Shown in pieces: positions 4,303-59,359 of a stretch of DNA of 64,000 nucleotides. The stretch is from Streptomyces soli. GTDB taxonomy: Bacteria; Actinomycetota; Actinomycetes; Streptomycetales; Streptomycetaceae. The notes below the pieces were generated by a model. The model did no database searches. It saw only the letters and a list, made by a program, of their open reading frames with translations, and was not told the DNA's origin. Position numbers and translations under genes: made by a program. Each line of letters opens with the position of its first letter. Positions within the stretch are counted from its first letter, which is position 1. The DNA lies in NCBI RefSeq assembly GCF_003999195.1, contig NZ_RJVR01000106.1, positions 1 to 64,000 of the forward strand. The letters run 5' to 3'.

Positions 4303-4347
4303 CTCGTAATGCGTAGGTCTCGGGTTCGAATCCCGAAGGCGGCTCCA
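4303..4347 (+). repeat. tRNA-Thr(CGT) 3' half, copy 1 (attachment-site core)
   Basis: Runs from the anticodon loop (CTCGTAA, anticodon CGT) through the variable region, T arm (GGTTCGAATCC) and acceptor 3' strand (GGCGGC, T, CCA). The 5' half of the tRNA is absent, so it cannot make a tRNA. It is identical in all 45 bases to copies at 17433, 22788, 35456 and 59315, and the sequence differs immediately upstream of ctcgtaa. That places the crossover in the anticodon loop, as for many tyrosine integrases. Confidence 0.85.
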
Positions 4348-4352
4348 TGGTG

Positions 4353-4385
4353 AACCCCAGGTCAGGACTCTGAACTGGGGTTTTT
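4353..4385 (+). terminator. tRNA-type intrinsic terminator, copy 1
   Basis: AACCCCAG and CTGGGGTT form an 8-bp stem followed by a run of five T. The same stem recurs after each tRNA fragment. Confidence 0.7.
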
Positions 4386-4426
4386 CCTTCTTATTGACCA
4401 TGGGAAGTGTGCGTGTGAGGGCTTTT

Positions 4427-4454
4427 CGACCTACGCATTCCGATGCGTAGGTCG
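4427..4454. repeat. Second core-like palindrome, copy 1
   Basis: CGACCTACGCAT and ATGCGTAGGTCG are perfect inverted repeats around four bases. The right half matches the tRNA anticodon-arm core (ATGCGTAGGTC). Equivalent sites lie about 135 bp downstream of every tRNA fragment. Confidence 0.7.
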
Positions 4455-4569
4455 ATGGTTCACTCTGTGGAGTTGCTTGTGGCGCCGCTGGGCGTGAATG
4501 CCCCTTGAGCTGGACTTTCTTCATGGAGGCTCGGCTGTCGAGGTGCGGCGGGTGGGCTGTCGGCAGGCC

Positions 4570-4590
4570 AGGGGAGCGCGAGGGGAGCGC
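4570..4590 (+). repeat. Right-arm direct repeats AGGGGAGCGC x2
   Basis: Two exact 10-bp units at 4570-4579 and 4581-4590, 11-bp period. The same pair occurs at 17293-17313, at the other end of element A. Candidate arm-type integrase sites. Confidence 0.6.
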
Positions 4591-4965
4591 ATTGGTATTG
4601 ACGCACCATCAGTTCTGGGTCTGGTGGTGCCCGGTAGCGGTTGGTTCTGGCTGCGCCGACTGCCGTCTGCGTGGCGCTAACCAGCCCGGTACGTGCCAGT
4701 ACAACGAGTGTGGTCGGTGTGCATTTGGGTTCGCCGTGCGTGCCCGGCTCAGTTGTCGACCTCAGCCAAGAGCCGTGATCCGTGCTGCCCCGTCACCGCT
4801 GCCAGGTGCGCTCCGCTCTTGCCGGTGCGGTTCAAGGGTGTCACGCCATCAGACACCCACACACCCAACAACGTGACAACGCCAACCGGAGGTAAAGCTG
4901 TCCACGATCGATGTGCAGGGCCTCTGCGTAGGAGTCTGACCTCTGCGGGGTGTGGTCGTCGACGA

Positions 4966-5478
4966 TCACGGCTTGCCGCCGTTGCCGGGCGGGGACTTTT
5001 CCTCGTTGGCGCGGGCCGCCCGGTGGATGCGGCGCAGCTTCAGCGCGAGGGCCAGCGCGAAGGCGCCGAACAGGACAGCGGTAATGATCAGCCAGCGGCC
5101 GAGATAGATGTCGTAGGAGAGTCCGGTGGCGCCCGGGTAGGGGCTCGACAGCTGGAAGGCGAGGGGGAACCACACCAGCAGCAGCAGGCCGGAAAGGAAC
5201 GCCGGCACTCGCAGGTAGTTGATCAACGGAACGGCCGGCACGGCGTCGCCGCGATGTCGCAGGACGGAACGCGCCGAGAGATCGGCGAGGGAGTAGAGGG
5301 GCAGCAGGATCAGGTCGTGGAGGATCGCCGCCCCCACGAACCAGATCGCCACTTCGAGGGGCCGCGTGGCGAACAGCCGCACGCCGGCGTACGCGGTGAC
5401 CGCGAACGAGCAGATGAGGACCAGCAGGTGCAGGGGATTCGCGCCGTACCAGCGGGCCAGGCGGGCCAGGCGGGTCAT
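4966..5478 (-). CDS. Small membrane partner of molybdoenzyme 1
   Basis: About 170 residues with four predicted hydrophobic segments and a basic, cytoplasmic-looking C terminus (KLRRIHRAARANEEK). The ATG at 5478 has AGGA 8 bases upstream. A GTG two codons earlier overlaps the stop of the preceding gene, so the two are translationally coupled. A frameshifted relative (13588-14141) sits in the same place after the second molybdoenzyme, and shared phrases such as the L-LHD segment support homology. A membrane subunit or assembly partner for the adjacent enzyme is inferred from this conserved pairing. Confidence 0.75.
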   Translation of the reverse strand: MTRLARLARWYGANPLHLLVLICSFAVTAYAGVRLFATRPLEVAIWFVGAAILHDLILLPLYSLADLSARSVLRHRGDAVPAVPLINYLRVPAFLSGLLLLVWFPLAFQLSSPYPGATGLSYDIYLGRWLIITAVLFGAFALALALKLRRIHRAARANEEKSPPGNGGKP

Positions 5479-5480
5479 GG

Positions 5481-6896
5481 TCACGTCCTGAAGGTGAGCC
5501 GGTGCACCCACTTGGTGTTGTTCACACCGGGGTTGGCCGGGACGATGATGCGCGCCGGGTAGCCGTGGTCGAGCGAGAGGTCGGCGCCGTTGACCCGCAG
5601 GGCGAGCAGGGCACGCGGGTCGTGGATCTGGTTTCCGCGCAGCATGGCCGAGCTGTAGGGGCCGGGAGGCTGCACGGATTCCACCAGGACGCTTCCGGCG
5701 TGGGAAAGACCGGCTAGGGCGGCGAGGTCGGCGAGACGCAGGCCGTTCCAGTGCTGGTCCTCGGTGGACCAGCCTTCCACGCAGGCGATCGGCAGCGCGG
5801 CCGCGTGCCGGGGCATCGCGAGCAGTTGCCCGCGGGTGAAGACCAGGGCCGGTCCTCGGCCGTGCACTTCCAGCCGCCAGGCGGGGCCGACGAGAGCCGG
5901 GGTGACGCTGACGGAAGCGGCGGTCTTGTTGATCTGGAATCCGTTCGACCCGCTGCCCGGATTGCGATTGTGCGGGGCGAGCAGAGCGGTGCTCCGCAGG
6001 CGGCCACCGATGCTTTGGCCCACGGTGACCACAAGCAGGGCCAGCGATCCCGCCCCCACCAGGCCCACGGCGCCGCGCCGTGACATGGTCGGGGCCGCCG
6101 GCGCGGCCGGTACCAGACCGTCGGGGTCCGGCGGCTCGGGCCGCGTGTGGGCGACGTCGGTGCGCAGCTCCGTGAGCAGGTTGCGAGAGCGTAGGGCGCG
6201 TGTCATCCGGCCGAGCTTGAGGCACACATGGACACTGAACGCGGCGATGAATACCCACGCGCCGTAGAAGTGCAGGGTGTAGAAGGAGCCGGGGAAAATG
6301 TAGAAAAGCTGGATGTTGAAGATCCCGGTCACGAACTCGAAGATGGCCCCGCCCACGAGCAGCAGGAGGGACAGCCGCTCCAGGCCGTGCGCGAGCGACC
6401 GCACCGGCAGCCACTCGAAGAGTTTCGGGATGACCGACCACAGCTTGGCCAGCAGTACGGGTACGAGCACCACGCCGAGCGTTACGTGAATGCCCTGGGT
6501 CAGCCGGTAGAGCCAATACGGGTGGGTGGGCCAGTCGAACAGGTAGAAGCCCAGCAGGCCCTTGTCGGGGGTCTGGTCGTTGAGCGGGCCCAGATCGGGG
6601 TTGTACGCGGCGTAGGAGAGCGCGCCGGTCACGAAGAGCACCGGGATGCCGACCAGCAACACCAGGCCGAACACCGACGTCAGCCACGGACCGCGGATCG
6701 GACTGCGCCAGAACCCGGGCCGAAAGGGCCCCGGGGGCGGGGGCGTCTCGCTGATCCGCCCCACCGTCGTCTTCATCCGTGCTGCCGCGGCTGCGGCGAT
6801 CTGCTGGAATCGCCGCCGTGAAGGCGTGTCGCCGTCTTTCGAGGGCTTCGGTGTCCCCGCTGAACCGGAGGCCGAAGGTCGTCCGCCGTTTCCCAC
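5481..6896 (-). CDS. Cytochrome b / sulfite-oxidase-type molybdopterin oxidoreductase 1
   Basis: About 471 residues in two parts. The N-terminal half has several membrane segments with His residues placed as in diheme cytochrome b561-type proteins (TQGIHVTLG, AFSVHVCLK). After an RR-containing linker (MSRRGAVGLVGAG), the C-terminal half is an oxidoreductase molybdopterin-binding fold: the Moco-ligand Cys lies in LPIACVEGWS, followed by the typical LDHGYPARIIVPANPGVNN-W stretch. It should pass electrons between a periplasmic-side molybdenum site and the quinone pool; the substrate is unknown. The GTG at 6896 has GGAGGAG 7 bases upstream; an ATG at 6776 is an alternative. It is paralogous to 14141-15286 in the same element, but with a longer N terminus. 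Confidence 0.85.
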   Translation of the reverse strand: MGNGGRPSASGSAGTPKPSKDGDTPSRRRFQQIAAAAAARMKTTVGRISETPPPPGPFRPGFWRSPIRGPWLTSVFGLVLLVGIPVLFVTGALSYAAYNPDLGPLNDQTPDKGLLGFYLFDWPTHPYWLYRLTQGIHVTLGVVLVPVLLAKLWSVIPKLFEWLPVRSLAHGLERLSLLLLVGGAIFEFVTGIFNIQLFYIFPGSFYTLHFYGAWVFIAAFSVHVCLKLGRMTRALRSRNLLTELRTDVAHTRPEPPDPDGLVPAAPAAPTMSRRGAVGLVGAGSLALLVVTVGQSIGGRLRSTALLAPHNRNPGSGSNGFQINKTAASVSVTPALVGPAWRLEVHGRGPALVFTRGQLLAMPRHAAALPIACVEGWSTEDQHWNGLRLADLAALAGLSHAGSVLVESVQPPGPYSSAMLRGNQIHDPRALLALRVNGADLSLDHGYPARIIVPANPGVNNTKWVHRLTFRT

Positions 6897-7152
6897 CAAC
6901 CGTCTCCTCCGCACAGGACCGCGCCCTGGGCGGGGTGCAGGCGGCCGCGATCACCTTGCTACTCATAGACCGGGGTTCCGGTCGGAGCTCTCAGCACCAC
7001 CGGCGATCGCACTGCGTACCGCACAGATTGCACTCGTCCGGGCGTATCCCGGCGGCCGCGGGGTCGGTGATCGCCATGCCGGTACCGGCGGCCTGTCCGA
7101 CAAGGACGGTCGTGGATCGCTCGGCGGCGTCAGCGGCGTGTGAAGATTCCGC

Positions 7153-7565
7153 TCATGGGCGTGGGGAATGCGACAGCGCTGCCTTGACCTCGTCCCAGCG
7201 CGCAGCCTGCAGGGGGTGAGGGTGCCGCCAATTTCGGCGAGCTTGAGGAAGTTGGCCTCGGCGGCGGAGGTGCGGGTCTGGGCCTCGGCGCGGTAGTGGT
7301 CGTCGACGAGAGCGTCGAGTTCGGCGTCGTTCATGACGGGGGTGATGCGCTCGGCCAGATTGTTCATGTCCCGGTAGGAGCCCTGGAGCCGGAAGGGCGG
7401 TTCGGTGCGGGAGGCGTCGGACTGGGCGGCCGAGGCGATGTACGCGCGGTTGACGGCCAGCACGGTGCGCTGGGCGTGCAGCAGCTTGGTGAGGACGGCG
7501 AGGATGCCGTCGAGCTCCGCGGGCGGGTACCGGTGGGTGAGTTGATCGGGGTGAGTGAGTGGAGT
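7153..7565 (-). pseudogene. 3' remnant of a DNA-repair ATPase (DUF3686-type)
   Basis: The minus-strand product reads FRLQGSYRDMNNLAERITP, then a short acidic stretch and AEANFLKLAEIGGTLTP, which I recognise as the C-terminal end of the large actinobacterial AAA 'DNA repair ATPase' family. The last codons (ARWDEVKAAL) are in another frame, so a frameshift lies near 7210. Everything upstream is missing: near 7565-7620 the sequence switches to an unrelated gene on the other strand. Only ~130 of more than 1500 residues remain, so it is a non-functional scar. Positions 6966-7152 hold no gene. Confidence 0.65.
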
Positions 7566-7621
7566 CAGCGCCACGGGCCATGCCGGCCGCTGTGGGGCAG
7601 GCCCCGTCGCGACGTCAGCGG

Positions 7622-8006
7622 AGCCGCGACGGTCGTCGCGCGGGTGGGGTCCTTCGTCTTCGCGGCCTACTACACCGGCCTCGACGCGGTGGCGGGCATG
7701 TCTGCCGGTACGGTCACCGACCACGGGGCGACCTCAGCGGTGGGGCCACTGTTCACGAGGGGCGACGCCCTGGGCCATACCGGTGTGTACGCCCTTGCCG
7801 TCGCCGCTCTCGCCACCTGTGCCGTGCCGTTCCTGCGCCACGGTGCGCGAGTGCTTCCTGGGGGCGTGATTCTGCTCGCGGCCTGCTGGTCGTTCTACGA
7901 CAGTCACATCTTCCGGCCCAAGGGCGTGTTCACCATGTTGGGCTACGCTGTCGCCTTCGGCCTGCCGGCCCGGGCGGCGAGCGCGGATACGCCGAGTGCC
8001 GCCTGA
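7622..8006 (+). pseudogene. 5'-truncated membrane protein
   Basis: Open frame coding for about 125 residues with three or four hydrophobic segments (VGSFVFAAYYTGLDAVAG, ALAVAALATCAVPFL, GVILLAACWSFYDSHIF). There is no start codon with a ribosome-binding site at the front. The coding part begins where the DNA-repair ATPase remnant ends, so both genes were cut at the same breakpoint. It resembles small Streptomyces integral membrane proteins of unknown function. An internal GTG start (about 7689) is possible but would remove the first membrane segment. Confidence 0.5.
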
Positions 8007-8078
8007 ATTCCTTACGGACCGCTGACGACCGGGCACGGAACACGCCGCGGGGCGGCGGGGGTCCGTAATGTCGGCCTC

Positions 8079-9127
8079 ATGCTGGTACTTGTCACTGGAG
8101 GAGCGGGCTTCATCGGCTCGCGGGTCGTCACCGCTCTCACCGCGGCGGGGCACGACGTTCGGGTCCTGGACGCACTGCTGCCCGCTGCGCACCGTACGGC
8201 GCCGCCCGTTCCGGAGGGGATGGAATGGCGGCAGGCCGATGTCCGTGACCGGGCGGCGGTCGAGGAGGTCCTGCGGGATGTGGACGCGGTCTGCCATCAG
8301 GCCGCCATGGTTGGGCTGGGCAAGGACTTCGCCGATGCGCCCGACTATGTGGGGTGCAATGACCTCGGTACGGCGGTGCTTCTGGCGGGCATGGCGCGGG
8401 CGGGAGTGCGGCGGTTGGTGCTTGCCGGGTCGATGGTGGTGTACGGCGAGGGGCGGTACGAGTGCGTGCGGCACGGGGTCGTGCGGCCGGGTCCGCGCCG
8501 GGTGGCGAGTTGGACGCCGGGCGGTTCGAGCCGCCGTGTCCGCGGTGCGGTGAGCCGCTGGCGCCGGGGCTGGTGGATGAGGAGGCGCCTCTCGATCCGC
8601 GCAATGTGTACGCGGCGACCAAGCTGGCCCAGGAGCACCTGGCGGCGGCGTGGGCGCGGGCGGTGGGCGGCTACGCGGTGTCCCTGCGGTATCACAACGT
8701 CTATGGTCCCGGGATGCCCAGGGACACTCCGTACGCGGGGGTGGCATCGCTGTTCCGGTCGGCACTGGCTCGGGGTGAGGCGCCGCGGGTTTTTGAGGAC
8801 GGCGGTCAGCGGCGGGACTTCGTGCATGTACGGGATGTCGCCGCGGCGAACGCGCTGGCACTGTCAGGGGCGCAGGATGGTCCGGAGGGCGCTCTGCGGG
8901 CGTTCAACGTGGGCAGTGGCGAGCCGCACACGGTCGGCGAGCTGGCGGCCGAGCCGGCCCTCGCGTCCGGTGGGCCGGCGTCGGTGACGACGGGGGAGTA
9001 CCGGCTCGGGGACGTCCGGCACATCACGGCGTCGTCGCGGCGGCTCCGCGACGAGCTGGGGTGGAAGCCGGAGGTCCGGTTCGCGGAGGGCGTCGCGGAG
9101 TTCGCTACGGCGTCGTTGCGGGGCTGA
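8079..9127 (+). pseudogene. NAD-dependent epimerase/dehydratase with a frameshift
   Basis: Extended SDR. The N terminus reads MLVLVTGGAGFIGSRVV (NAD-binding GGxGxxG). Past the lesion come the catalytic YAATK and the typical RYHNVYGPGMPRDTPYAG segment. The second part begins ELDAGRFEPPCPRCGEPLAP, a small Cys pair insertion seen in this epimerase subgroup. The halves are in different frames; adding one base near 8505 (ggtggcgagttgg) restores a continuous ~350-residue protein. It is therefore a recent lesion or a sequencing error. It would make or modify a nucleotide sugar for the glycosyltransferases at 11127 and 15401. Confidence 0.75.
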
Positions 9128-9149
9128 CCGCGCGAAAGGCGCAGAACCG

Positions 9150-10260
9150 TCAGACGGCGGCGGGGAGGCGTACTTCGAAGCGGCAGCCGCCCGGGACATT
9201 ATGGACGGCGGCGTGGCCGTGGTGGGCCTCGACGATTCCGCGGACGATGGCCAGTCCGAGCCCGGCGCCTGCCGGGGGTGTGCGGGCGTCGGTGCCGCGC
9301 CAGCCGGTGTCGAATACCCGGGGGAGTTCCTCGGGCGGGATGCCGCCGCAGCCGTCGGTGACGGACAGCACGACGGAGTCGGCCTCGCGGTGTGCGGCGA
9401 CGGCGACGGTGCCGTCGGCGGGGGTGCGGTGGATGGCGTTGACGAGGAGGTTGGCCAGGACGCGGGTCATCTCCCGGCCGTCCACCTCCACCGGTACCGG
9501 CTCCACGCCCCGGCCGACCAGCGATATGCGGTGCTGCCGGGCGAGTGCGTCGGCGCCCGCGATGGCGTCGCCCACGAGGTCGTACACCGACATGCGGGCG
9601 GGCATGAGCGAGAGCACGCCGGCCTGGATGCGGGACAGTTCGAAGAGGTCGCCGACCATGGAGGTGAGCCGTTCCACTTCGGCGCGGATCTGGGTGTGGT
9701 AGCGGGTGGGGTCGGCGGCGACGCCGTCCTCCAGGGCTTCGGTCATGGCCCGCAGTCCGGCGAGCGGGGTGCGCAGGTCGTGGGAGATCCAGGCGACCAG
9801 CTCGCGGCGTGATGCCTCCAGGGCGCGTTCGCGTTCCCGGGACTCGACCAGTTTGGTGCTGGTGGCGGCGAGTTCGCGGCCCAGTTCGGCGAGTTCGGCG
9901 GTGGGCGCGTGGCGTGGGGCGGCGAAGGAGTCGCTGTCGCCGAACGCCCGGGTCGCGGCGGTCAAGGGCGCGGCTGCCCGCGACCACTCTGCGGCCGAGC
10001 AGCAACGCCATGACGAGGGAGATGACCGCCGCTATGGCGCACACGGCCGTCACCACGCCCAGGTCGTGGCTGGACAGGAACATCGCGCGGGCGACCGAGA
10101 GCGTCCCGGCGAGCATCGCCCCGACGGTGACCGCCGCCACCACGGCCAGCGACACGGCGACCGAGCGGGCGCGCAGCAGCCACAGTGCGACCGCACCGAG
10201 CAGCCCGGCGGCCACGGCGCCGAGGGCCGCGTACGCGAGGATCAGCAGCAGGTCCTGCAT
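9150..10260 (-). pseudogene. Sensor histidine kinase with a frameshift
   Basis: The N-terminal part (from ATG 10260) has three to four membrane segments (MQDLLLILAYAALGAV onward). The second part holds a HisKA domain with the phospho-acceptor in [13 protein letters not shown] and a HATPase domain with N box (LANLLVNAI), G1 (VTDGCGGIP) and G2 ([12 protein letters not shown]). The frames meet near 9963, where removing one base (ctt to ct) joins GSRAL to TAATRAF. It pairs with the response regulator transcribed just upstream (26-bp gap). If the frameshift is real, the receptor half is cut from the kinase half and signalling is lost. Confidence 0.8.
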
Positions 10261-10285
10261 GGTCGGGGTCCTCCGGTTGCTGGGG

Positions 10286-11013
10286 TTACCGGGGTTGCGG
10301 GGGTGGGTCGAAGCGGTAGCCGGCGCCCCATACGGAGCTGATCAGCCGGGGCCGGGCGGGGTCCTCCTCGACCTTCTCGCGCAGCCGCCGGACGTGGACG
10401 GTGACGGTCGACAGGTCTCCGAACTCCCAGCCCCAGACGCGTTGCATCAGCTCGTCGCGGCCCATGACCCGGCCGGGATGTTGGAGGAAGAAGGCGAGCA
10501 GGTCGAACTCGCGCATGGTCAGGGCGAGCTCGGTGCCGTCGAGGGTGGCGCGGCGGCCGCCCGGTCCAGGGCGAGTGGGCCCGCGCGCAGCCAGGCCCGG
10601 GCGGCGGGCCCCTGTTCGGCGGTGCTGCCGGCCCGGCGCAGCACGGAGGTCACCCGCAGGACGAGTTCGCGCGGGCTGAACGGCTTGGTGACGTAGTCGT
10701 CGGCGCCTACCTCCAGCCCCAGGATGCGGTCCTCCTCGTCGGCGCGTGCGGTGAGCATGACCACGGGGACCGGGCCTTGGCCATGCCGGATCCGGCGGCA
10801 CACCTCCAGGCCGTCCATGCCGGGCAGCATCAGGTCCAGCACGACCAGGTCGGGGCGTACGGCAGCGGCCCGGGCCACGGCGGAGGGGCCGTCGGCAGCC
10901 CGGTCCACCGTGAAACCGGCGCGGTCCAGGTAGGTGGCGACGACCTCCGAGACGGTCGAGTCGTCGTCCACCACCAGAACGCGGGCCCTGGGTACTGCGA
11001 TCGGTGCGCTCAC
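10286..11013 (-). pseudogene. OmpR/PhoB-type response regulator with a frameshift
   Basis: The receiver domain carries the phospho-Asp in [15 protein letters not shown] and the conserved Lys in [13 protein letters not shown]. The C-terminal winged helix has WGWEFGDLSTVTVHVRRLRE and ends GAGYRFDPPP. The two domains are in different frames; restoring one G near 10557 (gcggccgccgcg) joins LALDRAG to RRATLDG. GTG at 11013 is the likely start. It is the partner of the kinase at 9150-10260 and divergent from the glycosyltransferase at 11127, which it may control. Both genes of one two-component system carry single-base lesions, which is worth checking in the reads. Confidence 0.8.
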
Positions 11014-11072
11014 GTCGTCGAGTCTCGCACCGGGGATGCGCCGGGGCGGCCCGCGCCTGCGGACGTCCGCGT

Positions 11073-11118
11073 TTCGTAAGGACCAGATTCCCAAAATGTC
11101 CCTTTCGTGTTCGTAAGG
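11073..11118. promoter_or_regulatory. Direct repeats TTCGTAAGG in the divergent gap
   Basis: Two exact 9-bp copies (11073-11081 and 11110-11118) lie 37 bp apart, start to start, between the response regulator and the glycosyltransferase. Tandem repeats like this are typical of OmpR/PhoB-family binding sites, though the spacing is longer than usual. Candidate operator only. Confidence 0.35.
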
Positions 11119-11126
11119 TGTGAGGG

Positions 11127-11864
11127 GTGACAGAGACTTCTCCGCCTCCTGAAGGCGTCGCTCCTGCCGGATCCCTCGTCGATGTCGTACTGCCGTGCCT
11201 GGACGAGGCCCCGGCCCTGCCCTGGGTGCTGGAACGCATCCCGCCAGGCTGGCGGGCGATCGTGGTCGACAACGATTCCACCGACGGCTCGGCGGAGCTG
11301 GCCGCATCGCTCGGCGCGTACGTCCACGAGCCCCGCCGGGGCTTCGGCGCGGCCTGTCACGCGGGGCTGCGGGCTGCGACTGCGGACGTGGTGTGCTTCT
11401 GCGACTTCGACGCCTCGCTGGACCCGGGCCTGCTGCCGTCCGTCGCCGGACCGGTGCTGGACGGCGCCGCCGATCTCGTACTGGGCAGGCGGCGGCCGAC
11501 CGTGCGCGGTGCCTGGCCGCCGCACGCGCGGCTGGCCAACCTGGAACTGGCCCGTCTCATCCGTCGCCGCACCGGCCTGCGGCTGCACGACCTCGGCCCG
11601 ATGCGCGCCGCCCGCCGCGAGGCGCTGCTCGGTCTCGGCCTGACCGACCGACGCTCCGGCTACCCGCTCCAGATGCTGGTCCGGGCCGCCGACGCGGGCT
11701 GGCGGGTCCGCGAGCTGGACGTCCCGTACACGCCGCGCGTCGGCCGTTCCAAGGTGACCGGGACCTTGCGCGGTACCTGGCACGCGGTGCGCGACATGCG
11801 GGCGGTGCTCGCCGAACCGGCTCGGCCGCAGCGGACGGCGTCCCCGGCCGGAGTCGCCCGGTGA
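11127..11864 (+). CDS. Family 2 glycosyltransferase
   Basis: 245 residues, GT-A fold. VDVVLPCLDEAPALPWVL opens the domain, VVDNDSTDGS is the nucleotide-binding loop, and CDFDASLDP supplies the DxD metal site. There are no clear membrane helices, so it is probably cytoplasmic and uses a lipid-linked or small acceptor (polyprenyl-phosphate mannose synthase-like). GTG start. The stop overlaps the next GTG as GTGA, the first of three tightly coupled genes (11127-13239). It lies divergent from the two-component system and between an epimerase and a GT-C transferase, which suggests an envelope glycan pathway. Confidence 0.85.
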   Translation: MTETSPPPEGVAPAGSLVDVVLPCLDEAPALPWVLERIPPGWRAIVVDNDSTDGSAELAASLGAYVHEPRRGFGAACHAGLRAATADVVCFCDFDASLDPGLLPSVAGPVLDGAADLVLGRRRPTVRGAWPPHARLANLELARLIRRRTGLRLHDLGPMRAARREALLGLGLTDRRSGYPLQMLVRAADAGWRVRELDVPYTPRVGRSKVTGTLRGTWHAVRDMRAVLAEPARPQRTASPAGVAR

Positions 11865-12562
11865 CCCCCGCGATCCGGGGCGCGGCCCCGGCGGGCCCGG
11901 TGACCTTGCTGGTCATCGCCAAGGAGCCGGTGCCCGGCCGGGTCAAGACCCGACTCACGCCTCCGTACGCTCCCTGGCAGGCCGCCGCCCTCGCCGAAGC
12001 GGCGCTGGCCGACACCCTCGACGTGGTGCTGCGGGCCCCGGCCCGGCGCCGGGTCCTGGTGCTCGACGGTTCGCCGGGCCCCTGGCTGCCGCCCGGCTTC
12101 GAGGTCGTTCCGCAGGTGGCTGGTGGCCTCGACGAACGGCTCGCGGCGGCCTTCGCCCGGTATGACGACGGCCCCGCGCTGCTGGTCGGGATGGACACCC
12201 CGCAGGTCACCCCGGAATTGCTGGCCCCGGCCGTGGCGTCCGGCAGGTGGGACGGCTGCGAGGCCTGGTTCGGCCCGGCGGCCGACGGCGGCTTCTGGAC
12301 GCTGGGCCTGAGCGAGCCCGGGCTGGCCCCCGGGCTCATTCGGGGTGTGCCGATGTCCACCGCCCGCACCGGGGAGATCCAACGGCGCCGTCTGACGGAC
12401 GCGGGCCTGCGGGTACGCGACCTGCCGCCGCTGCGGGACGTCGACAACGCCGTTGACGCCGCCGAGGTCGCGGCGGCCGTACCGCACTCGCGCTTTGCGG
12501 CGGCAGTGGGCCGGTTCGCGGACAGCGCGGCGAGCCGGGTACTGACGGACGCCGTTCGGTGA
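11861..12562 (+). CDS. DUF2064 / MobA-like nucleotidyltransferase-fold protein
   Basis: 233 residues. LLVIAKEPVPGRVKTRLTPP at the N terminus is the signature of the DUF2064 (TIGR04282) family, a GT-A-like fold related to MobA; GMDTPQVTPELL and a late GGFWTLGL are also typical. The GTG overlaps the stop of the glycosyltransferase (GTGA), and its own stop overlaps the next start. The catalytic activity of this family is not established. Together with GT2 and methyltransferase neighbours, it is probably a sugar or nucleotide-sugar step. Confidence 0.85.
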   Translation: MTPAIRGAAPAGPVTLLVIAKEPVPGRVKTRLTPPYAPWQAAALAEAALADTLDVVLRAPARRRVLVLDGSPGPWLPPGFEVVPQVAGGLDERLAAAFARYDDGPALLVGMDTPQVTPELLAPAVASGRWDGCEAWFGPAADGGFWTLGLSEPGLAPGLIRGVPMSTARTGEIQRRRLTDAGLRVRDLPPLRDVDNAVDAAEVAAAVPHSRFAAAVGRFADSAASRVLTDAVR

Positions 12563-13239
12563 GCGGCACCGATCTCACCGAACTCGCTGAGCTTCCGGCC
12601 GATCCGGCCGGGCCGTGGATCGACGATCCGTACGGACATGCGCTGCGCACCGGGCGCGGGCCGCTGTTCCTTCGGCGTTCCGACGGCTGGTTGCTGCCGC
12701 TGGAGGTGGAGCGCTGGTGCGCCGAGCCGGACGCGACCGATATCACGTTGTTCAGCCGTTGCCGGGGTTCGGTGCTGGACATCGGCTGCGGTCCCGGGCG
12801 GTTGGTCGCCGCTCTCGCCGGGCACGGGCTGACGGCGCTCGGCGTGGACGTCAGCCCGGCCGCTGTCGCCCGTACCCGGGGCGCGGGCGGCTCGGTGCTG
12901 CGGCGTTCGGTCTTCGACCGCCTTCCGGCGGAGGGACGCTGGGGCACCGCCCTGCTCGTCGACGGCAACATCGGCATCGGCGGCGACCCGCACGCCCTGC
13001 TCACCCGGGTCCGCCAACTCATCGCCCCCGGTGGCCGCCTGCTCGCCGAGGCGGCCCCGCACGACGTCGACGAACGCCTCACCGTCCGCGTCCAGGACGC
13101 CCACGGCCACCACGGCCACGACTTCCCCTGGGCCCGCCTCGGCCCGACCGCCCTCCTGCGCACCGCCACTCTCACCGGCTGGACCCCGGTCGACCAATGG
13201 ACCGCCGACGGCCGCACCTTCGTCGAGCTGTGGGGATGA
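12559..13239 (+). CDS. Class I SAM-dependent methyltransferase
   Basis: 226 residues with motif I VLDIGCGPGRLVAALAGHG and a following acidic motif in LGVDVSPAAV. The substrate cannot be read from sequence. GTG start overlapping the upstream stop; last gene of the GT2-DUF2064-methyltransferase operon. It converges with the small membrane gene at 13588 across a 350-bp gap in which I saw no gene and no clear terminator. Confidence 0.85.
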   Translation: MSGTDLTELAELPADPAGPWIDDPYGHALRTGRGPLFLRRSDGWLLPLEVERWCAEPDATDITLFSRCRGSVLDIGCGPGRLVAALAGHGLTALGVDVSPAAVARTRGAGGSVLRRSVFDRLPAEGRWGTALLVDGNIGIGGDPHALLTRVRQLIAPGGRLLAEAAPHDVDERLTVRVQDAHGHHGHDFPWARLGPTALLRTATLTGWTPVDQWTADGRTFVELWG

Positions 13240-13587
13240 CGCCGGCCGGGCCCCGCACCGCTGGTCGCGGTGAGTTCGGCACTGTCCGGCCGGGGGCTGC
13301 CCGGCGGATCCTGACCGGATCCGTCACGTGTCCCGGGCCCGGCGGCCGGGAGGGGCCCAGCGCACAGCACCTCGCGGCGCTGCTGACCACGCCCGCCCGG
13401 CAGCCCCCTCACGCGGGAGCCCCGACGCCCGGCGACGCCATCCACAACCATTGGCCAGGGGTGTACTTGCCCCCGGCCATCACCGTCAGAGCCGCGTCTA
13501 CGCCCGCGCTGCCGACCGCCAGTGTCCGGCCCACGTAAGCGCACGCCGGCGCTGTGGCCGCCCGTGCCCCAGGGCCACGCCGTCCGG

Positions 13588-14141
13588 CTACTGCCGGTCG
13601 GGGCGGGGAGGGTCCTCGGGGGCAGGCCGCCCGGCAGTGTCCGGTCCGGGGGACGTGGTCTCCGGCGCGGGCGTGACGGTTCGCTCGGGCAGGTTCGCCG
13701 GTGCGTCAGCCGCAGCTGACCGGGGTGACGCCTCGGCACAGTGGGCGGTCGGCCTGTGCCGGAGGATTCGTCGTACGGCGTGCCAGGCCAACGCGAGGGC
13801 GGCCACCGTGCCGAGGGCGATGACCAGGTTCCGTCCGTAGCCCAGCGGAAGCACCGAGGCGTTGGCCGGGCGCCCCGGCCGTAGCAGCGTGGGAGGGCCA
13901 CCGCCGTGAGGCAGGCGGCGATGATCAGGGCGCCCCGGACGGAACGCCGAAGCCGGGGCGGCAGCAGCGCGCCGGCGGTGAGGGTGGCAGGGACCAGCAC
14001 ACCGTCGTGCAGTAGTACCGCACCGACCAGCCACCACAGGACGTCCAGCGGCTTCTTGACGTGCGGGTCCGTCAGGAGGACGGCGCCCAGCGCCATCGCC
14101 GCGACCCCTGCCGTGCCGACTGTGACGCGCAGCGCCTTCAT
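13588..14141 (-). pseudogene. Small membrane partner of molybdoenzyme 2, frameshifted
   Basis: The first ~85 residues (MKALRVTVGTAGVAAMALGA, DVLWWLVGAVLLHDGVLVPA) match the partner gene at 4966-5478 in pattern: membrane segments and a conserved LHD. A lesion near 13890 then shifts the frame. The continuation LLRPGRPANASVLPLGYGR, one more membrane segment and a Pro-rich tail are intact in the other frame; one added base restores them. The ATG overlaps the molybdoenzyme stop (TGATG), so translation is coupled. Confidence 0.75.
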
Positions 14142-15286
14142 CACAGCACCTCCAGGCGTTCGACCCATTTGGTCTGCAGAACACCCGGCCGGTTCGGGGC
14201 GATGATGCGGGCCGGGAAGCCGTGGTCGAGGGCGAGGGTCTGCCCGTTCAGGGACAGGGCGAGCAGGGCGAGCGGGTCGCGGGCGTAAGAGGTGCCCATC
14301 TCCATCACCGCGTATGCCCCGTGCCGCTGCATCGACGTCACACGTACGTGTGCCCCCGGCGGGGCACCGGCGCGGTCCAGGAGGTCCGTGATCCGTACGC
14401 CCGTCCAGTGCGCGTTCTTGCTCCAGCCCTCGACGCAGGCGATGGGCAGGACCACGAAGCGCTGGCGCATGGCCCGCAGTTCGTCCAGCGTCAGTTCGTA
14501 CGGGCGCGGGCCGTCCACCCGCAGCCGCCAGCCCGGCAGCCGCTCGGCAGTGATCCCGGCGGCGGCCGCGGCGCGATTGACCGGCAGGCCCTGGGGTCCG
14601 TGGTCGGGGTGGCGGGGCGCGAACAGGTCGAAGTCCTTGAGCGGGGTGACGGACTGCCCGACCGTCGTCAGCGTCACCGCGCCGACGGCCGCGCCCACCG
14701 CCGCGACGAACGCCCTCCGGTCCGGGCCGTCGGCGTCCAACTGGGGGCGCTGCCAATGGGCGGCGATCTGCGGGGCCTTGACGGCGATGTGCAGCAGCAG
14801 CGCGCCCACCGCGACCCAGGCCAGCGCCCAGTGGGTCGGCCTGAAGTTCCAGGGCCACGGATACCACTGCAGGGTGTTGAGCAGCCCGGTGAGCAGCTGC
14901 AGCAGCACACTGCCGACCAGCACCCCGATGGACAGTCTCTCCAGCGCGTGCACCACCGACCGCACCGGCGGCCACTCGAACAGCCGCGGATACACCGTCC
15001 ACAGCTTGGCGAACAGCAGGGGGATCGCCGCGATGCCGCTGGCCACGTGCAGGCCCTGGGTGAGCCGGTAGCCCCAGGACGGGCGGCTGGGCAGCAGGTT
15101 CGCCGCCCATCCGGGCGGTTGTTGCAGGTAGTGGCTGATCAGGCCGGTCACGAAGGCCGTCAGGATCGCCGCGCCGAGCAGGCGGCCGATCACCGTGGCC
15201 GTGCGGGGGTCGTGCAGGCGCCCCTTGAACACCGGACGCGGCGGGCGTGGAAGGTGCGCAAGGCCTGGAGGGCGGCTCGTGTCCAT
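14141..15286 (-). CDS. Cytochrome b / sulfite-oxidase-type molybdopterin oxidoreductase 2
   Basis: 381 residues, the same two-part layout as 5481-6896. Membrane helices with haem-type His (TQGLHVASGIAAI, ALLLHIAVKAPQ) come first, then a short linker and a Moco domain with the ligand Cys in LPIACVEGWSKNAHWTG, ending LDHGFPARIIAPNRPGVLQ. Membrane-bound electron transfer is inferred; the substrate is unknown. The ATG at 15286 has GGAGG very close upstream. The GT-C gene at 15401 diverges from it, leaving ~115 bp for both promoters. Two homologous but clearly diverged modules in one 13-kb unit suggest different substrates or an old duplication. Confidence 0.85.
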   Translation of the reverse strand: MDTSRPPGLAHLPRPPRPVFKGRLHDPRTATVIGRLLGAAILTAFVTGLISHYLQQPPGWAANLLPSRPSWGYRLTQGLHVASGIAAIPLLFAKLWTVYPRLFEWPPVRSVVHALERLSIGVLVGSVLLQLLTGLLNTLQWYPWPWNFRPTHWALAWVAVGALLLHIAVKAPQIAAHWQRPQLDADGPDRRAFVAAVGAAVGAVTLTTVGQSVTPLKDFDLFAPRHPDHGPQGLPVNRAAAAAGITAERLPGWRLRVDGPRPYELTLDELRAMRQRFVVLPIACVEGWSKNAHWTGVRITDLLDRAGAPPGAHVRVTSMQRHGAYAVMEMGTSYARDPLALLALSLNGQTLALDHGFPARIIAPNRPGVLQTKWVERLEVL

Positions 15287-15400
15287 GCCTCCATCACACC
15301 GCGCCGCACACGCTGAGCAGGGCCTTGAACACCTTACGGAATGCGGACGTCCCGCCCCGCCTGATCGCTTCCGGGTGCGCGGGGCTGGCACGGTGGCGGC

Positions 15401-16822
15401 GTGGGAATCCGTACACGCGTCTCCGTCGTCGCCGCCCTGCTCGCCGCCCTCACCGCAGCCGTTGCCCTCGCGGTCCACAGCGGCGCGATCCGTGCCGACC
15501 CCGGCCGCATCCTGCTCTGGTACGGCATCGCCTGGGCGCTGTTCGCAGCCGCCGCCTGGGCCGTACGCAAGGTGCCGGTCCAGGCCGCGACCGTGCTGGT
15601 CCTCCTCGGCGGCGCGGCCGTTGCCGTCGCGGCGCTCACCGCGCCGCCCAGCACCAGCAGCGACATGTACCGCTACGCCTGGGACGGCAAGGTGCAGGCC
15701 GCCGGGATCTCCCCGTACACCTACCCGCCGTCGGCGCCGGAGCTCGCCCCACTGCGCGAGAGCTGGCTCTTCCCGCCGCAGGCCGCCTGCCGGGACCACG
15801 ACCTCGTGCGGAAGCTGGAACTGCACGCCGCGGACGGCGTGTGCACCCACATCAACCGCCCCACCGTCCACACGATCTACCCGCCGGTCGCCGAGGGCTG
15901 GTTCCTCGCGGTGCACGAGCTGTCCCCGGCCGGCAGCGGCCACAAGGCCCTGCAGACCGGCGGCGCGGTGCTGGCCATGGGCACCACCGTCGCGCTGCTC
16001 GTCGTGCTGCGACGGCGCGGCCGCGACCCGCATGCGGCGGCGCTGTGGGCCTGGTGCCCGGCCGTCCCCGTCGAGGCCGTCAACAACGCCCACATCGACA
16101 CCCTCGGTGTGCTGCTGACCGTCCTCGCCCTCGGCACCGCCACCGCCGGCACCCGGCGCGGAGCACTGCTCGGCGCTGCCATCGCCGTCAAGCTCTACCC
16201 GGTCCTCGCCCTGCCCGGCGCCCTTTCCGCCCTCCGGCCCCGCCAGGCCGCGCGCGTCGTGGTGCCCGCTGTCGCCGTCATCACCCTCGCCTACCTGCCG
16301 TACGCCCTCGCCTCCGGCGCTGGCGTCCTCGGCTACCTCCCCGGCTACCTCCAGGAAGAGGGCTACGACTCCGGCAGCGTCCACCGCTTCGGCCTGCTCC
16401 GCATCCTCCTGCCCGACGCCGCCGCCGGCCCCGCCGCCGTGCTCCTGCTGCTGCTCACCGCGCTGTACGTACTCCGCCGCGGCGATCCGGACCGGCCCTG
16501 GAGCGGCGCCCTCCTGGTCACCGGCACCGCCCTGCTCCTCACCTCGCCCGCCTACTCCTGGTACGCCCTCCTCATCGTCGCCCTCGTCGCCCTGGACGGC
16601 CGCTGGGAATGGCTCACCGTCCCCGCCGCAGGGGCCACCCTCTACGTCGGCGGCGCGCTGTGGCACGTACCCCTCCAGTCGCTGTCGTACGGGGCCGCCG
16701 CGCTTGCCGTGCTGGCCGGTGCGGCTGTACGAGGCCGCACGGCATCGGGCCGGGCGGCGTCCGGCGGGGTCGGTGTGCCTGCCATCCGCCGCGCGCTCGC
16801 CAGCGAGGAGCAGGACGCCTGA
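15401..16822 (+). CDS. GT-C-type membrane glycosyltransferase (mannosyltransferase-like)
   Basis: 473 residues with about ten to twelve membrane helices. The first extracytoplasmic loop has SSDMYRYAWDGKVQAAGISP, the acidic/Arg signature of polyprenol-phosphate-sugar-dependent transferases of the GT87/GT39-like superfamily; AVNNAHIDTLGVLLTVLAL and a membrane KLYPVLALPGAL motif are also typical. It would add a sugar from a lipid-phosphate donor outside the membrane, plausibly using product made by the GT2 at 11127. GTG start with little Shine-Dalgarno. It is the last gene of element A. Confidence 0.85.
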   Translation: MGIRTRVSVVAALLAALTAAVALAVHSGAIRADPGRILLWYGIAWALFAAAAWAVRKVPVQAATVLVLLGGAAVAVAALTAPPSTSSDMYRYAWDGKVQAAGISPYTYPPSAPELAPLRESWLFPPQAACRDHDLVRKLELHAADGVCTHINRPTVHTIYPPVAEGWFLAVHELSPAGSGHKALQTGGAVLAMGTTVALLVVLRRRGRDPHAAALWAWCPAVPVEAVNNAHIDTLGVLLTVLALGTATAGTRRGALLGAAIAVKLYPVLALPGALSALRPRQAARVVVPAVAVITLAYLPYALASGAGVLGYLPGYLQEEGYDSGSVHRFGLLRILLPDAAAGPAAVLLLLLTALYVLRRGDPDRPWSGALLVTGTALLLTSPAYSWYALLIVALVALDGRWEWLTVPAAGATLYVGGALWHVPLQSLSYGAAALAVLAGAAVRGRTASGRAASGGVGVPAIRRALASEEQDA

Positions 16823-17432
16823 CAGAGCGCCTCGCCGGACGGCCGACGAGGCGAGCCGAGCCGAGCCCGAGGCAACACGATGACGATCGAGGAGTGGCTT
16901 CGTTTAGGTCTAGCAGCAGCGTTTGGACGCCGGGTTGGGCAGCAGTTTGGAATCTTGGGTCTCGTGAATGTTCGCGAGAAATGACGTCACCGCATGGGGA
17001 CGCCTGGGAGATGAGTCTCGCGGCGGTGACCACGGCCTGAACAGGCGGTGCAGGCCTGCGTGATCTATGAGACCGTCCTCGATGTCCTGAGGGGCTGACA
17101 ACGATCGTTCCCGTGCGTCTCCAGTCGGCATTGCTTTGTTGGCTTGCTACAGGCGAGCGCCTGGGGTGCCGTCAGCAGGGTGGTCACTGGACTGGGACAC
17201 GGTACGTAGCCTCCAGAACATGTGGTCACGTCGACGTCCTGGCATCCCCGGTTGTATGGAGGTGACGCCGAGGCCGTGCGATAGAGGACGGCAGGGGAGC
17301 GCAAGGGGAGCGCGGACGCCTTTGGACCTGCCATCACGAGGCATCACGAGAGAACGTGGCTCATGCGCTGTGATCAGGTAATACGGGATGGGGCAGCCTT
17401 GGGCGGCACGGCGCGGCATGATCGCTTTCGTA
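16823..17432. other. Right end of element A, no gene recognised
   Basis: About 600 bp of mixed composition with no convincing reading frame. The last 140 bp are the left arm of attachment copy 2, including the AGGGGAGCGC pair and the conserved cgcggacgcctttgga block. Confidence 0.5.
17293..17313 (+). repeat. Left-arm direct repeats AGGGGAGCGC x2 at copy 2
   Basis: Exact units at 17293-17302 and 17304-17313, followed by ggacgcctttgga, which is shared with copies 4 and 5 (ggatgcctttgga at copy 3). They match the pair at the other end of element A. Confidence 0.6.
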
Positions 17433-17477
17433 CTCGTAATGCGTAGGTCTCGGGTTCGAATCCCGAAGGCGGCTCCA
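17433..17477 (+). repeat. tRNA-Thr(CGT) 3' half, copy 2
   Basis: Identical 45 bases to copy 1. Upstream sequence reads tcgta before the conserved ctcgtaa; the other copies read differently there. Confidence 0.85.
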
Positions 17478-17482
17478 TGGTG

Positions 17483-17515
17483 AACCCCAGGTCGGCCATT
17501 TGACCTGGGGTTTTT
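17483..17515 (+). terminator. tRNA-type terminator, copy 2
   Basis: AACCCCAGGTC pairs with GACCTGGGGTT (11 bp) and is followed by a T run. Strongest of the five. Confidence 0.75.
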
Positions 17516-17556
17516 CCTTTCGGGTGACCTTGGAACCTGGGTCAATCGGGCACGTG

Positions 17557-17584
17557 CGACCTACGCATCGTAATGCGTAGGTCG
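17557..17584. repeat. Second core-like palindrome, copy 2
   Basis: CGACCTACGCAT, four bases CGTA, then ATGCGTAGGTCG: a perfect 12-bp inverted repeat. Its right half plus centre equals the tRNA core cgtaatgcgtaggtc. Confidence 0.7.
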
Positions 17585-17677
17585 GAGGTGTGGTTTCTCT
17601 GTTGACGTGGGCGGTCTAAGCCTCTGAGCTGGTCTTTTGCCTATTCGGGAGGATGGATCAGGCTCGCGCAAAGGGTC

Positions 17678-17698
17678 CCGGTGGACAACCGGTGGACA
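17678..17698 (+). repeat. Right-arm direct repeats CCGGTGGACA x2 at copy 2
   Basis: Units at 17678-17687 and 17689-17698. They match the arms at the right end of element B. Confidence 0.6.
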
Positions 17699-17699
17699 G

Positions 17700-18885: not shown

Positions 18886-19049
18886 TACCTGGACTGCTTC
18901 CTCCGGGACCCGTCCGTCCCAGTATCAGGCTGTCCAGATCAACGGTGGAACTTCGGGGAACCTCACTGCTGCCGCCCACCCCGACCCGCCATCAGCAATC
19001 CAAACGATCACCCCACAGGCCGACCACAACCAAGTTGACAATGCCCTGC

Positions 19050-57365: not shown

Positions 57366-57690
57366 CCCGCCGACCAGCGAAGCCTCCTCGCCAGGCTGCC
57401 GCAGCAGCCTGGTTGGGCGAGTTTGCGGCCCGCCAGGTCTGCGAGCCCGTCGGCGCGGTGGCCGCGCAGCAGCATCGCGTTGGCCATGACGACTGTGGGC
57501 AGCTGGGCGGAGGCCTACTCTGAGGTGCGCCCTCGGCTCGGCCGGGTGAGGATCGGGGGACGCGCGGTCTCCCGCCCGCGCTGCGGCCGTCTACCGGTGC
57601 CGTGATCGCTCGAACCAGGCGGTCGGCTTGCGGGGCTGTGAAGCAGCGGCCCGGCTGCGCGGTCGTCGGCGGCCAGTCGCTGCTGGAGTG
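57366..57690. other. Gap, no gene recognised
   Basis: About 325 bp; a minus-strand fragment (ANAMLLRGHRADGLADLAGR) is open but short and not assignable. Confidence 0.35.
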
Positions 57691-58920
57691 ATGATGGCGT
57701 CCCGGATCAGCCAGACCCCCCTCCAACGCAGGCGCCGCCTGCGCGCCGGGCGTACACAGCTGCTGTTCACCCTTGTGGGCCTGGGTCTGGGCCTGGCCGT
57801 GCCGCGTGTTACGGGCGGCCCGACAGCGCCGGCGCGTCAGGTGACCGACATGTTGCTGGGGCTGGGCTTCGGTGTGCTCGGTGCGACGGCTGTCATCTTC
57901 TCGCTCCTGTTCCTGGTGGTGCAGTGGGCGCACACCACGTTCACGCCGCGCCTCACACTGTTCCGAGAGGCGCCGATCGTATGGCGGACCTTCGCCTTCG
58001 CGATCAGCCTGGCGGCCTTCTGCATCACGGCGGCCCTCGCCATCGGCTCCCGCACCGATGTGTCGGTCGCTGTGCCCGTCGTCGCCGGAGTTCTGCTGCT
58101 CGTCATGCTGGCGCTGCTGCGGACGCTGCAACTGCGGGCCTTCGCCGCCATCCAGCTCGCGCCGGTCCTCCACTCGATCACGGAGCGCGGCCGCATCATC
58201 CTCGATGCCCTGTACCCCCACGACGGCGCCTCGGCCCCGGCAACGTCCGGGCCACTGCCCCCGCTGTACTCGACGCTCACGTGGCCCAGGCCTCTGACGG
58301 TGCTGCAGCAGGTCGACACCGTCCGGCTGCTCGCTGCCGCGCAGGCGGCGAACGCGGTCGTCGTTCTGCACAGCCTGCCGGGCGACACCCTGCCGCACGG
58401 CGCCACCATCGCCGACGTGCACGGCGCGCAGCTTCCGGCCTCCGCCGTGCTGGACGCCCTGGTCACCGGCACCGAGCGGACCTTCGAACAGGACCCGCAG
58501 CTCGCCTTCCGACTGCTGGCCGACATCGCCCTGCGGGCACTGTCCGCGGCGGTGAACGACCCCGCCACCGCCGTTCAGTGCCTGGACTGCCTGGAAGACC
58601 TGCTCGGCGGGCCCGCCGCGGCCCAGAGTGGCCGCCCCCTGCAGGTCACCGGCCCCGACGGCGCGGTACGCGTCGTGGTCGAGCTGCCCGGCTGGGAGGA
58701 CTTCCTGCGCACCTCCCTCGACGATGTCATCGCGGCCGCCGTGAACTCCCCGATGGTCCTCCTGCGCCTGCGGACCCTGCTGATGCGGCTTCGGGCCGAG
58801 AGCCACCCTGACCGCGACGAGCTGCTGATCCGTCGGCTGGCCTGGGTGGAGGGGGAGCTGGGCGGGCGCTTCCCCCTGCTGTTGCGGGAAGCGGCCGGGG
58901 CCTCACCCGACGGCGGATGA
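57691..58920 (+). CDS. DUF2254-like membrane protein
   Basis: About 409 residues. Four membrane helices in the first ~160 residues (GLGLGLAVPRV, LGFGVLGATAVIFSLLFLVV, FAISLAAFCITAALAI, VAGVLLLVMLALL), then a soluble domain with DIALRALSAAVNDPATAVQC, the conserved segment of DUF2254 proteins. Several start codons (GTG 57688, ATG 57691, ATG 57694) follow CTGGAG; the exact one is uncertain. Role unknown. Its stop overlaps a 57-codon frame (58917). Confidence 0.8.
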   Translation: MMASRISQTPLQRRRRLRAGRTQLLFTLVGLGLGLAVPRVTGGPTAPARQVTDMLLGLGFGVLGATAVIFSLLFLVVQWAHTTFTPRLTLFREAPIVWRTFAFAISLAAFCITAALAIGSRTDVSVAVPVVAGVLLLVMLALLRTLQLRAFAAIQLAPVLHSITERGRIILDALYPHDGASAPATSGPLPPLYSTLTWPRPLTVLQQVDTVRLLAAAQAANAVVVLHSLPGDTLPHGATIADVHGAQLPASAVLDALVTGTERTFEQDPQLAFRLLADIALRALSAAVNDPATAVQCLDCLEDLLGGPAAAQSGRPLQVTGPDGAVRVVVELPGWEDFLRTSLDDVIAAAVNSPMVLLRLRTLLMRLRAESHPDRDELLIRRLAWVEGELGGRFPLLLREAAGASPDGG

Positions 58921-59090
58921 CCCGCGGAGCCGCCCGGATCTGGCTGTTCACCACTTCCGGGAGCCGCGACACGGAGTACAGCCTCAAGGGCCGGGAGGTC
59001 GCGGACAAGTGCCGCTCCGTCTACAACAACCTCGTGTGGGGCTCGAAAAGGATTCTGTCCGGGACCGTCTACGTCGAAGAGGCTTCCTGA
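58917..59090 (+). CDS. Small 57-aa reading frame overlapping DUF2254
   Basis: ATG overlaps the DUF2254 stop as ATGA, and codon use is strongly Streptomyces-like, so it may be translated by coupling. Sequence: basic/aromatic, with RIWLFTTSGSRDTEYSLKG and CRSVYNNLVWGSKRI. No signal or membrane segment. I do not recognise it; it may be the remaining piece of a larger gene cut near attachment copy 5. Confidence 0.4.
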   Translation: MTRGAARIWLFTTSGSRDTEYSLKGREVADKCRSVYNNLVWGSKRILSGTVYVEEAS

Positions 59091-59175
59091 GAGGCCATTT
59101 TCTAGGAGTCGACGACCACTCGCAGGAGGATCTGTTGGAGACCAACAACCCTGATGAGTTGGCCTCCTGACGGTC

Positions 59176-59196
59176 CCGGTAGCCAGCCGGTGGCCG
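59176..59196 (+). repeat. Left-arm direct repeats CCGGTAGCCA/CCGGTGGCCG at copy 5
   Basis: Units at 59176-59185 and 59187-59196, then gacgcctttggac. Same GGTGGCC family as the other end of element D. Confidence 0.55.
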
Positions 59197-59314
59197 GACG
59201 CCTTTGGACGACGCAATACGAGGCAGTACAGGTCAACCAGTCGCATGTGCTCTGATCAGGCAGAACATCACTCGGCAGCACGACCCGGCACCACGCAACA
59301 CGAACGCTCACGGT

Positions 59315-59359
59315 CTCGTAATGCGTAGGTCTCGGGTTCGAATCCCGAAGGCGGCTCCA
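59315..59359 (+). repeat. tRNA-Thr(CGT) 3' half, copy 5
   Basis: Same 45 bases, preceded by tcacggt. Confidence 0.85.

Follow-up and report, generated by a model that had tools for sequence, protein, structure and literature searches.

Accretion, the stacking of integrated elements in tandem, is established for cis-mobilizable elements (CIMEs), which have been described as decayed integrative and conjugative elements (ICEs) or integrative mobilizable elements (IMEs) (PMC5704250). In a Streptomyces population, accretion at tRNA-Arg involves one to three elements termed AICEs (actinomycete integrative and conjugative elements) and DAICEs, defined by traB (PMC9513070), and tandem AICEs occur in Frankia and S. 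avermitilis (PMC3218068). Dehalococcoides carries tandem islands at ssrA, 15 of them without an integration module and named possible cis-mobilizable elements (PMC3146451). Here we describe a locus in Streptomyces soli, covering bases 1-64000 of contig C28 (90,145 bp; hereafter the window) in a 9.4-Mb assembly of 412 contigs, where 3' halves of a tRNA-Thr gene with anticodon CGT delimit successive stretches of DNA. From sequence comparison, we consider it probable that the window belongs to an accretion array at tRNA-Thr(CGT), made up of integrase-less cassettes that would be moved in trans by integrases of two clades, here called IntA and IntB.

A first-pass annotation of the window had reported five identical 45-bp copies of the tRNA-Thr(CGT) 3' half, each with a terminator, with upstream sequences diverging at the anticodon loop and no complete tRNA. 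Exact searching and ARAGORN confirmed all of this. The five copies of this core are letter-for-letter identical and all on the + strand, downstream of each come a GC-rich hairpin-like repeat and a T-run, the sequence upstream begins to diverge at base 1 of the anticodon loop, and ARAGORN found no complete tRNA in the 64-kb window. A chance origin of five identical 45-mers in one orientation is not credible. The earlier count of four complete units and two partial ones also held, as listed below, with arms typed by the motifs described after the list.

1-4302, + strand: partial element, right end, its far end off the contig; left arm of type I, as in elements at this tRNA gene that carry an integrase
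Start 136 bp before the core at 4303, + strand: motif GTCTCAGTTCT in the type I left arm
4303-4347, + strand: tRNA-Thr(CGT) 3' half, junction 1 (I to A)
4348-4834, + strand: right arm of type A, with terminator-like repeat, inverted repeat at 4428-4453 and tandem of two GGGGAGCGC at 4571
4348-17432, + strand: unit 1, arms A/A, 13.1 kb, no integrase match
17294-17432, + strand: left arm of type A, tandem at 17294
17433-17477, + strand: tRNA-Thr(CGT) 3' half, junction 2 (A to B)
17478-17842, + strand: right arm of type B, with inverted repeat at 17558-17583 and tandem of two CCGGTGGACA at 17678
17478-22787, + strand: unit 2, arms B/B, 5.3 kb, no integrase match
22650-22787, + strand: left arm of type B, tandem at 22650
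22788-22832, + strand: tRNA-Thr(CGT) 3' half, junction 3 (B to B)
22833-23209, + strand: right arm of type B, with inverted repeat at 22913-22938 and tandem at 23032
22833-35455, + strand: unit 3, arms B/B, 12.6 kb, no integrase match
33460-33975, + strand: truncated type A right arm within unit 3, without a core, about 90% identical to right arms on host contig G000:C12 and on G010:C377
35318-35455, + strand: left arm of type B, tandem at 35317
35456-35500, + strand: tRNA-Thr(CGT) 3' half, junction 4 (B to B)
35501-35862, + strand: right arm of type B, with inverted repeat at 35581-35606; core and arm 94% identical to a copy in G010
35501-59314, + strand: unit 4, arms B/B, 23.8 kb, no integrase match
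59177-59314, + strand: left arm of type B
59315-59359, + strand: tRNA-Thr(CGT) 3' half, junction 5 (B to B)
59360-64000, + strand: start of unit 5, right arm of type B, with inverted repeat at 59440-59465 and tandem at 59563

No exact core follows the 59315 copy on C28 up to the contig end at 90145. The truncated right arm inside unit 3 implies that at least one further element was lost or fused.

The cassette right arm spans about 360-490 bp to the right of a core and the left arm about 140 bp to the left of one. Arms are alike across units and species, with a mean column identity of 76% for 24 right arms and 77% for 17 left arms aligned over unrelated cargo. The DNA between them is mostly unshared: a blastn comparison of the window with other arrays found mainly the arms, together with a few short shared stretches such as 26201-26551. 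Within each arm, a motif of 9-10 bp is repeated in tandem every 11 bp; it is either type A (GGGGAGCGC) or type B (CCGGTGGACA) and is located at about +200 (B) or +223 (A) in the right arm and at -138/-139 in the left. At about +80, most right arms also carry an inverted repeat with 10-bp arms and a 6-bp centre (10-6-10), one arm of which, TGCGTAGGTC, also forms the right half of the tRNA's anticodon stem-loop region.

In a genus sample of 35 genomes, one per species with the host included, we found 54 strong right-arm matches (E <= 2e-10) in 19 genomes. The 10-6-10 repeat was present in 47 of the 52 examined, two of the 47 needing five substitutions, compared with 13 of 1760 random 110-bp stretches; its frequency among the right-arm matches partly reflects selection, as most of the 24 arms used to build the right-arm model, R1, have the repeat. 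It was found in none of ten short-form right arms, among them that of an integrase-bearing element in G023, and in none of nine integrase-side arms. We read the repeat as a putative binding site. A role as a second tRNA crossover site was considered and rejected, since its 6-bp centre varies and does not track the anticodon loop in units at the tRNA-Thr gene with anticodon TGT. The same arms occur at that gene with the core swapped for its own 3' half: G005 has an A/A unit of 3.6 kb, G021 two B/B units, and G011, G022 and G031 right arms. Two half copies in G016 (C261:14051 and 44792; L084 and L086) have a terminator of the intact-gene type joined to a cassette right arm, which homologous exchange within the terminator may have produced. 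Related genes with DFKAIVAQTSAVLLTRGVEVEPVAVRDVV in common (L129:1773-2402 and L133:14416-14904) lie near short-form A arms of two species.

If each stretch between cores is a single element, agreement is expected between its own two arms but not necessarily between the arms facing each other across a junction, which come from different elements. At the CGT gene, arms agreed in 18 of 18 units with both arms typed (A/A 4, B/B 13, I/I 1), compared with 14 of 26 typed junctions (Fisher p = 5e-4); these units come from 30 rows, 12 with an untyped arm being excluded, and units and junctions were counted by eye. Two of the 18 are composites that span a further junction or left arm (G016 14051-44792 and G005 191232-160602), and with them removed 16 of 16 agree (p = 1e-3). 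At the TGT gene, arms paired by hand agreed in all seven doubly typed units (G005, two in G021, G023, G012, G030 and G032), the G012 unit being counted without reading its inside for further junctions. Because arms match within units and mix across junctions, the units are separate elements, each with its own matched ends, and the matching directly supports an accretion array at tRNA-Thr(CGT).

The first-pass annotation had placed all of the units at one tRNA gene and regarded five copies in one locus as unusually many. Five is correct for the window, and the count for the whole host genome is higher: 11 exact matches to the core, distributed as five on C28, two each on C12 and C314, and one each on C299 and C106, with none for a reversed-pattern control. 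Two further half copies, on C229 and C184, have one core substitution. ARAGORN scanning of six flanking pieces located an intact tRNA-Thr(CGT) gene at C12:25371-25447, followed by the same right arm, and no tRNA 5' half was seen upstream of the remaining exact copies. Accretion at a tRNA gene is thereby upheld, with direct core repeats delimiting the units and one complete target gene at one end. Since the contigs concerned are mutually unlinked, a single continuous array across C12, C28, C299, C314, C106, C229 and C184 is an inference.

Across the genus sample, exact copies ranged from 0 to 11 per genome, with at least one in 21 of the 35 and 0-6 in the 34 genomes other than the host. An uninterrupted colinear region with the same repeats in distant genomes had been named as the pattern that would speak against separate insertions; these low counts, and DNA between arms that is mostly unshared with relatives, support accretion. 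The core plus right-arm pattern matched 25 stretches in named records, 24 in Streptomyces and one in Actinacidiphila, and three of these (L116, L118 and L119, judged by eye) include an intact gene. Core-and-arm sites away from the tRNA gene were found in G027 and G031. Those in G027 (C1:7467382-7508656 and 8650047-8670213; L077-L081) lie with transposase-like genes and with two integrase genes of 384 aa that have identical first 70 residues.

The earlier interpretation of the 3'-half repeats as integration junctions stood, with the addition that the contig of the window has no tyrosine integrase match. A six-frame search of the host with PF00589 returned 32 matches, none on C28, C299, C314, C106, C229 or C184. 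Large serine recombinases were rejected as movers of the array, since PF07508 gave six matches in the host and none on the array contigs. By our own tally, there are 23 complete cassette-type units in 11 genomes, the host included, and 20 of them had no PF00589 hit among the matches listed and no phmmer match. No relaxase or type IV secretion system (T4SS) family was detected in Pfam scans of 35 window proteins, comprising 33 of the 54 genes predicted by our own codon-usage script, not a standard predictor, and two other frames.

Integrase-bearing elements are present at the same tRNA-Thr genes and fall by arm into type I (G010, G002, G012, G001, G022 and G030), type II (G023, G007, G012, G019 and G032) and others; a stretch of G010 (C124, 79403-54255) is an I/I unit with an integrase frame. 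An IntB element of 95.4 kb in G023 (C2:4942918-5038335) has an intact tRNA-Thr(TGT) at one end and a half copy at the other; its cores and its perfect B motifs number exactly two each, with one B motif per end. The element encodes a tyrosine integrase of 538 aa that has a SAM-like domain at its N-terminus, as well as proteins matching Relaxase, T4SS-DNA_transf and NLPC_P60. A second IntB element, in G020, lies at the CGT gene itself with 99.8 kb between its two cores. The hallmarks of an ICE, namely integrase, relaxase and T4SS-type genes between matched attachment (att) sites, were found in G023; G020 fits by its cores, arms and predicted genes, judged by eye only. The cassette left-arm model also matches both elements. 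The G023 element further contains matches to Cas1, DevR/Csa2 and Cse1 (L194, L209-L213 and L134), so that this conjugative-type element may carry two CRISPR-Cas sets.

Arm type follows integrase clade. In 249 genomes drawn evenly from the larger family, IntB matched at E <= 1e-170 in 39, with a partial match in G064 (82% over 321 residues) left aside. Among 12 full-length integrases at least 74% identical to IntB, the query included, eight have a B motif on their 3' side followed by a tRNA-Thr core. The 67% members of the integrase set (G028 and G011), which represent IntA, lie at an intact tRNA-Thr(CGT) with an A motif, and 13 of the remaining 16 fetched integrases have a type II motif. In a tree of 26 of the 30 fetched integrase loci, each of the types A, B and II occupies one side of a supported branch, with two changes, the minimum; none of 200 shuffles gave as few. 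The four loci absent from the tree (L225, L236, L240 and L244) include one B case, from G040, and two of type II. IntA and IntB are sister clades whose arm types equal the two arm types of the cassettes. Both kinds of structure occur together in G011, where one contig carries IntA at an intact gene and another carries an A/A and a B/B cassette.

We propose that a cassette consists of the core 3' half, right arm, cargo and left arm, with matched sites of the IntA or IntB arm type and no integrase of its own. IntA or IntB, supplied in trans from large conjugative-type elements at the same tRNA-Thr genes, would bind the tandem motifs of the arms. Strand exchange would take place in the anticodon loop, because divergence starts there, and insertion at the intact gene would restore the gene with the incoming 3' half, shifting older units and the older 3' half rightward. 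While a helper is present, cassettes could both integrate and excise in trans. They might pass from cell to cell as a composite excised with the helper, or by chromosomal transfer.

Several observations weigh against this proposal. Three of the 23 complete cassette units hold an integrase or a fragment of one: the unit on C12, a G010 unit with a broken integrase, and another G010 unit with a fragment. The two tyrosine recombinases of the C12 unit may possibly have a role in cassette mobility. Four of the 12 close IntB relatives depart from the pattern, with no motif in 7.6 kb in G084 and G090, another arm in G054, and a motif without a core in G039. Type A rests on two integrases, and 23 of 500 shuffles clustered the A label by itself equally well. 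No IntB-like match at E <= 1e-170 was found in the host, so present-day movement of cassettes there would need a visiting element. In the right arms, cassettes have the motif at about +200 or +223 plus the inverted repeat, compared with about +97 in arms beside IntA and IntB, and recognition by these integrases is therefore argued from the motif and the left arm; five of the 52 cassette right arms also lack the repeat. Finally, we infer cassette mobility, including excision, transfer, action in trans and the order of insertion, from sequence data.

The strongest alternative is ordinary accretion of decayed conjugative elements, or CIMEs, in which each unit lost its own integrase and kept attL and attR. 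This process has precedent, and C28 gave no match to an integration gene (PF00589 or PF07508), as expected of a CIME. The type I element left of 4303 would fit, as would the integrase fragments in two G010 units. Integrase-less stretches also occur beside short-form arms; an integrase beside such arms was considered and rejected in G034, G006, G022, G026, G028 (3443068), G011 (C72:9075), G014 and G003. However, it would have to account for the 20 of 23 complete units in which no integrase was matched, and independent decay would not yield a repeat block that both cassette types have and that the integrase-side and short-form arms examined all lack. Derivation by deletion finds left arms in common with IntB elements, but not the right-arm block. 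We therefore regard decay alone as unlikely.

Decay of IntA or IntB elements would leave short right arms, whereas cassettes share a longer arm and the repeat, a pattern that speaks for shared ancestry of the cassettes or for selection on the block. We hold this view tentatively, as few short arms were compared (19) and the cassette arms were gathered by similarity. It may be, with somewhat less than an even chance, that the cassettes are not dead ICEs and instead are long-lived integrase satellites with ends in two versions tuned to two helper clades, and that visiting conjugative elements run a gene-capture platform at tRNA-Thr in Streptomycetaceae. Under this satellite interpretation, the fixed ends would perhaps comprise the tRNA-Thr 3' half, the terminator, the 10-6-10 repeat, which shares its half-site with the anticodon stem-loop, the arm tandem, and the left motif at -139.

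In a further alternative, a single resident integrase gathers cassettes at the tRNA site in the manner of an integron. Many integrase-less units with a common attachment site would be expected, and C12 is the sole contig with an exact core that also has PF00589 matches. The candidate there is a pair of adjacent tyrosine recombinases (389 and 875 aa) with a DUF6262 protein and a TniB-like protein nearby (L009:12103-19169), an arrangement that we take to resemble Tn554-like transposons. We rejected this pair and the DUF6262 gene as the mover: the larger recombinase has matches in 5 of the 35 genomes, compared with 19 for strong right-arm matches, and does not track the arms, which points to a nested transposon. 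The pair also lies mid-unit and does not adjoin a core, and integron-like capture is accordingly very improbable. Duplication of a tRNA fragment or an assembly artefact, raised by the 412-contig assembly in which several array contigs end near cores, is hardly conceivable given units within single contigs of few-contig genomes (G029, G027 and G034) and unrelated cargo between matched arms.

The cargo differs from unit to unit. Unit 1 encodes two molybdopterin-oxidoreductase domain proteins, a histidine kinase, a response regulator, glycosyltransferases and a methyltransferase, and unit 2 a PadR regulator and a carotenoid-oxygenase-like (RPE65) protein. Unit 3 contains a TetR gene, two short-chain dehydrogenases and an alpha/beta hydrolase; unit 4 has an SBF symporter domain, DUF2252, a LuxR-family regulator, an alpha/beta hydrolase, a diacylglycerol kinase domain and DUF2254; and the part of unit 5 within the window encodes an ABC transporter. 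Past the window, unit 5 includes a cluster resembling those for ribosomally synthesized and post-translationally modified peptides (RiPPs) at C28:70329-78627 (L011:6329-14627), with Lant_dehydr_N, ThcOx/nitroreductase and AMP-binding proteins; a Ser/Cys-rich 58-aa frame at L011:10849-11025 could be the RiPP precursor. In G029, an A/A unit at an intact tRNA-Thr(CGT) (L058:2344-10813) encodes proteins matching the PADLOC Druantia models DruE4, DruF4 and DruL4; a 1099-aa protein of a G034 unit had no PADLOC match. Toxin-antitoxin-like pairs adjoin the left arm in several units (L055:9848-10521, with a PIN domain; L094:674-1323; L109:4263-4933; and G029:C1 near 5520068-5520740), with 88-95% identity among those of G034, G029 and L109.

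The 11-bp-period arm tandem appears to act as a readable code for integrase clade, even in an element that lacks an integrase, and would make it possible to match integrase-less islands to helpers. If this is true, conjugative elements collect and move packages of chromosomal genes that encode no mobility gene, here metabolic genes and a RiPP-like cluster and, in a relative, anti-phage genes. In the open-licence literature searched, we found no description of such an arm code or satellite family, which does not prove that they are unpublished, and no paper on integrative elements in the genus of the host.

Tandem integrase-less islands are already known, and this array is of that kind. AICEs and DAICEs at tRNA-Arg resemble it in being tandem elements at one tRNA gene, with direct repeats and differing integrases that share a site, in the same bacterial family; the present genome, by contrast, carries ten exact half copies, and its units, with their matched arms, are mostly integrase-less. 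The Dehalococcoides islands are also tandem at one RNA gene with integrase-less members, but they use a large serine recombinase, and the accessible part of that report does not mention an arm code to helper integrases. CIMEs are integrase-less, keep attL and attR and occur in tandem with other elements, whereas the cassettes have a common right-arm block missing from the integrase-side arms examined. Staphylococcal cassette chromosome (SCC) arrays at orfX/rlmH and integron arrays likewise include some cassettes without a recombinase; SCC uses serine recombinases, however, and integrons use attC sites and a resident integrase, while the present array has tRNA 3' halves and their arms as its sites. 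Elements with IntB (G023 and G020) or IntA (G028 and G011) have the same core and arm motifs as the cassettes but encode an integrase and have a shorter right arm, and the two that were measured are 95 and 100 kb long. What sets the array apart from known systems is its copy number, the predominance of integrase-less units, an arm code pointing to the helper, and the additional repeat.

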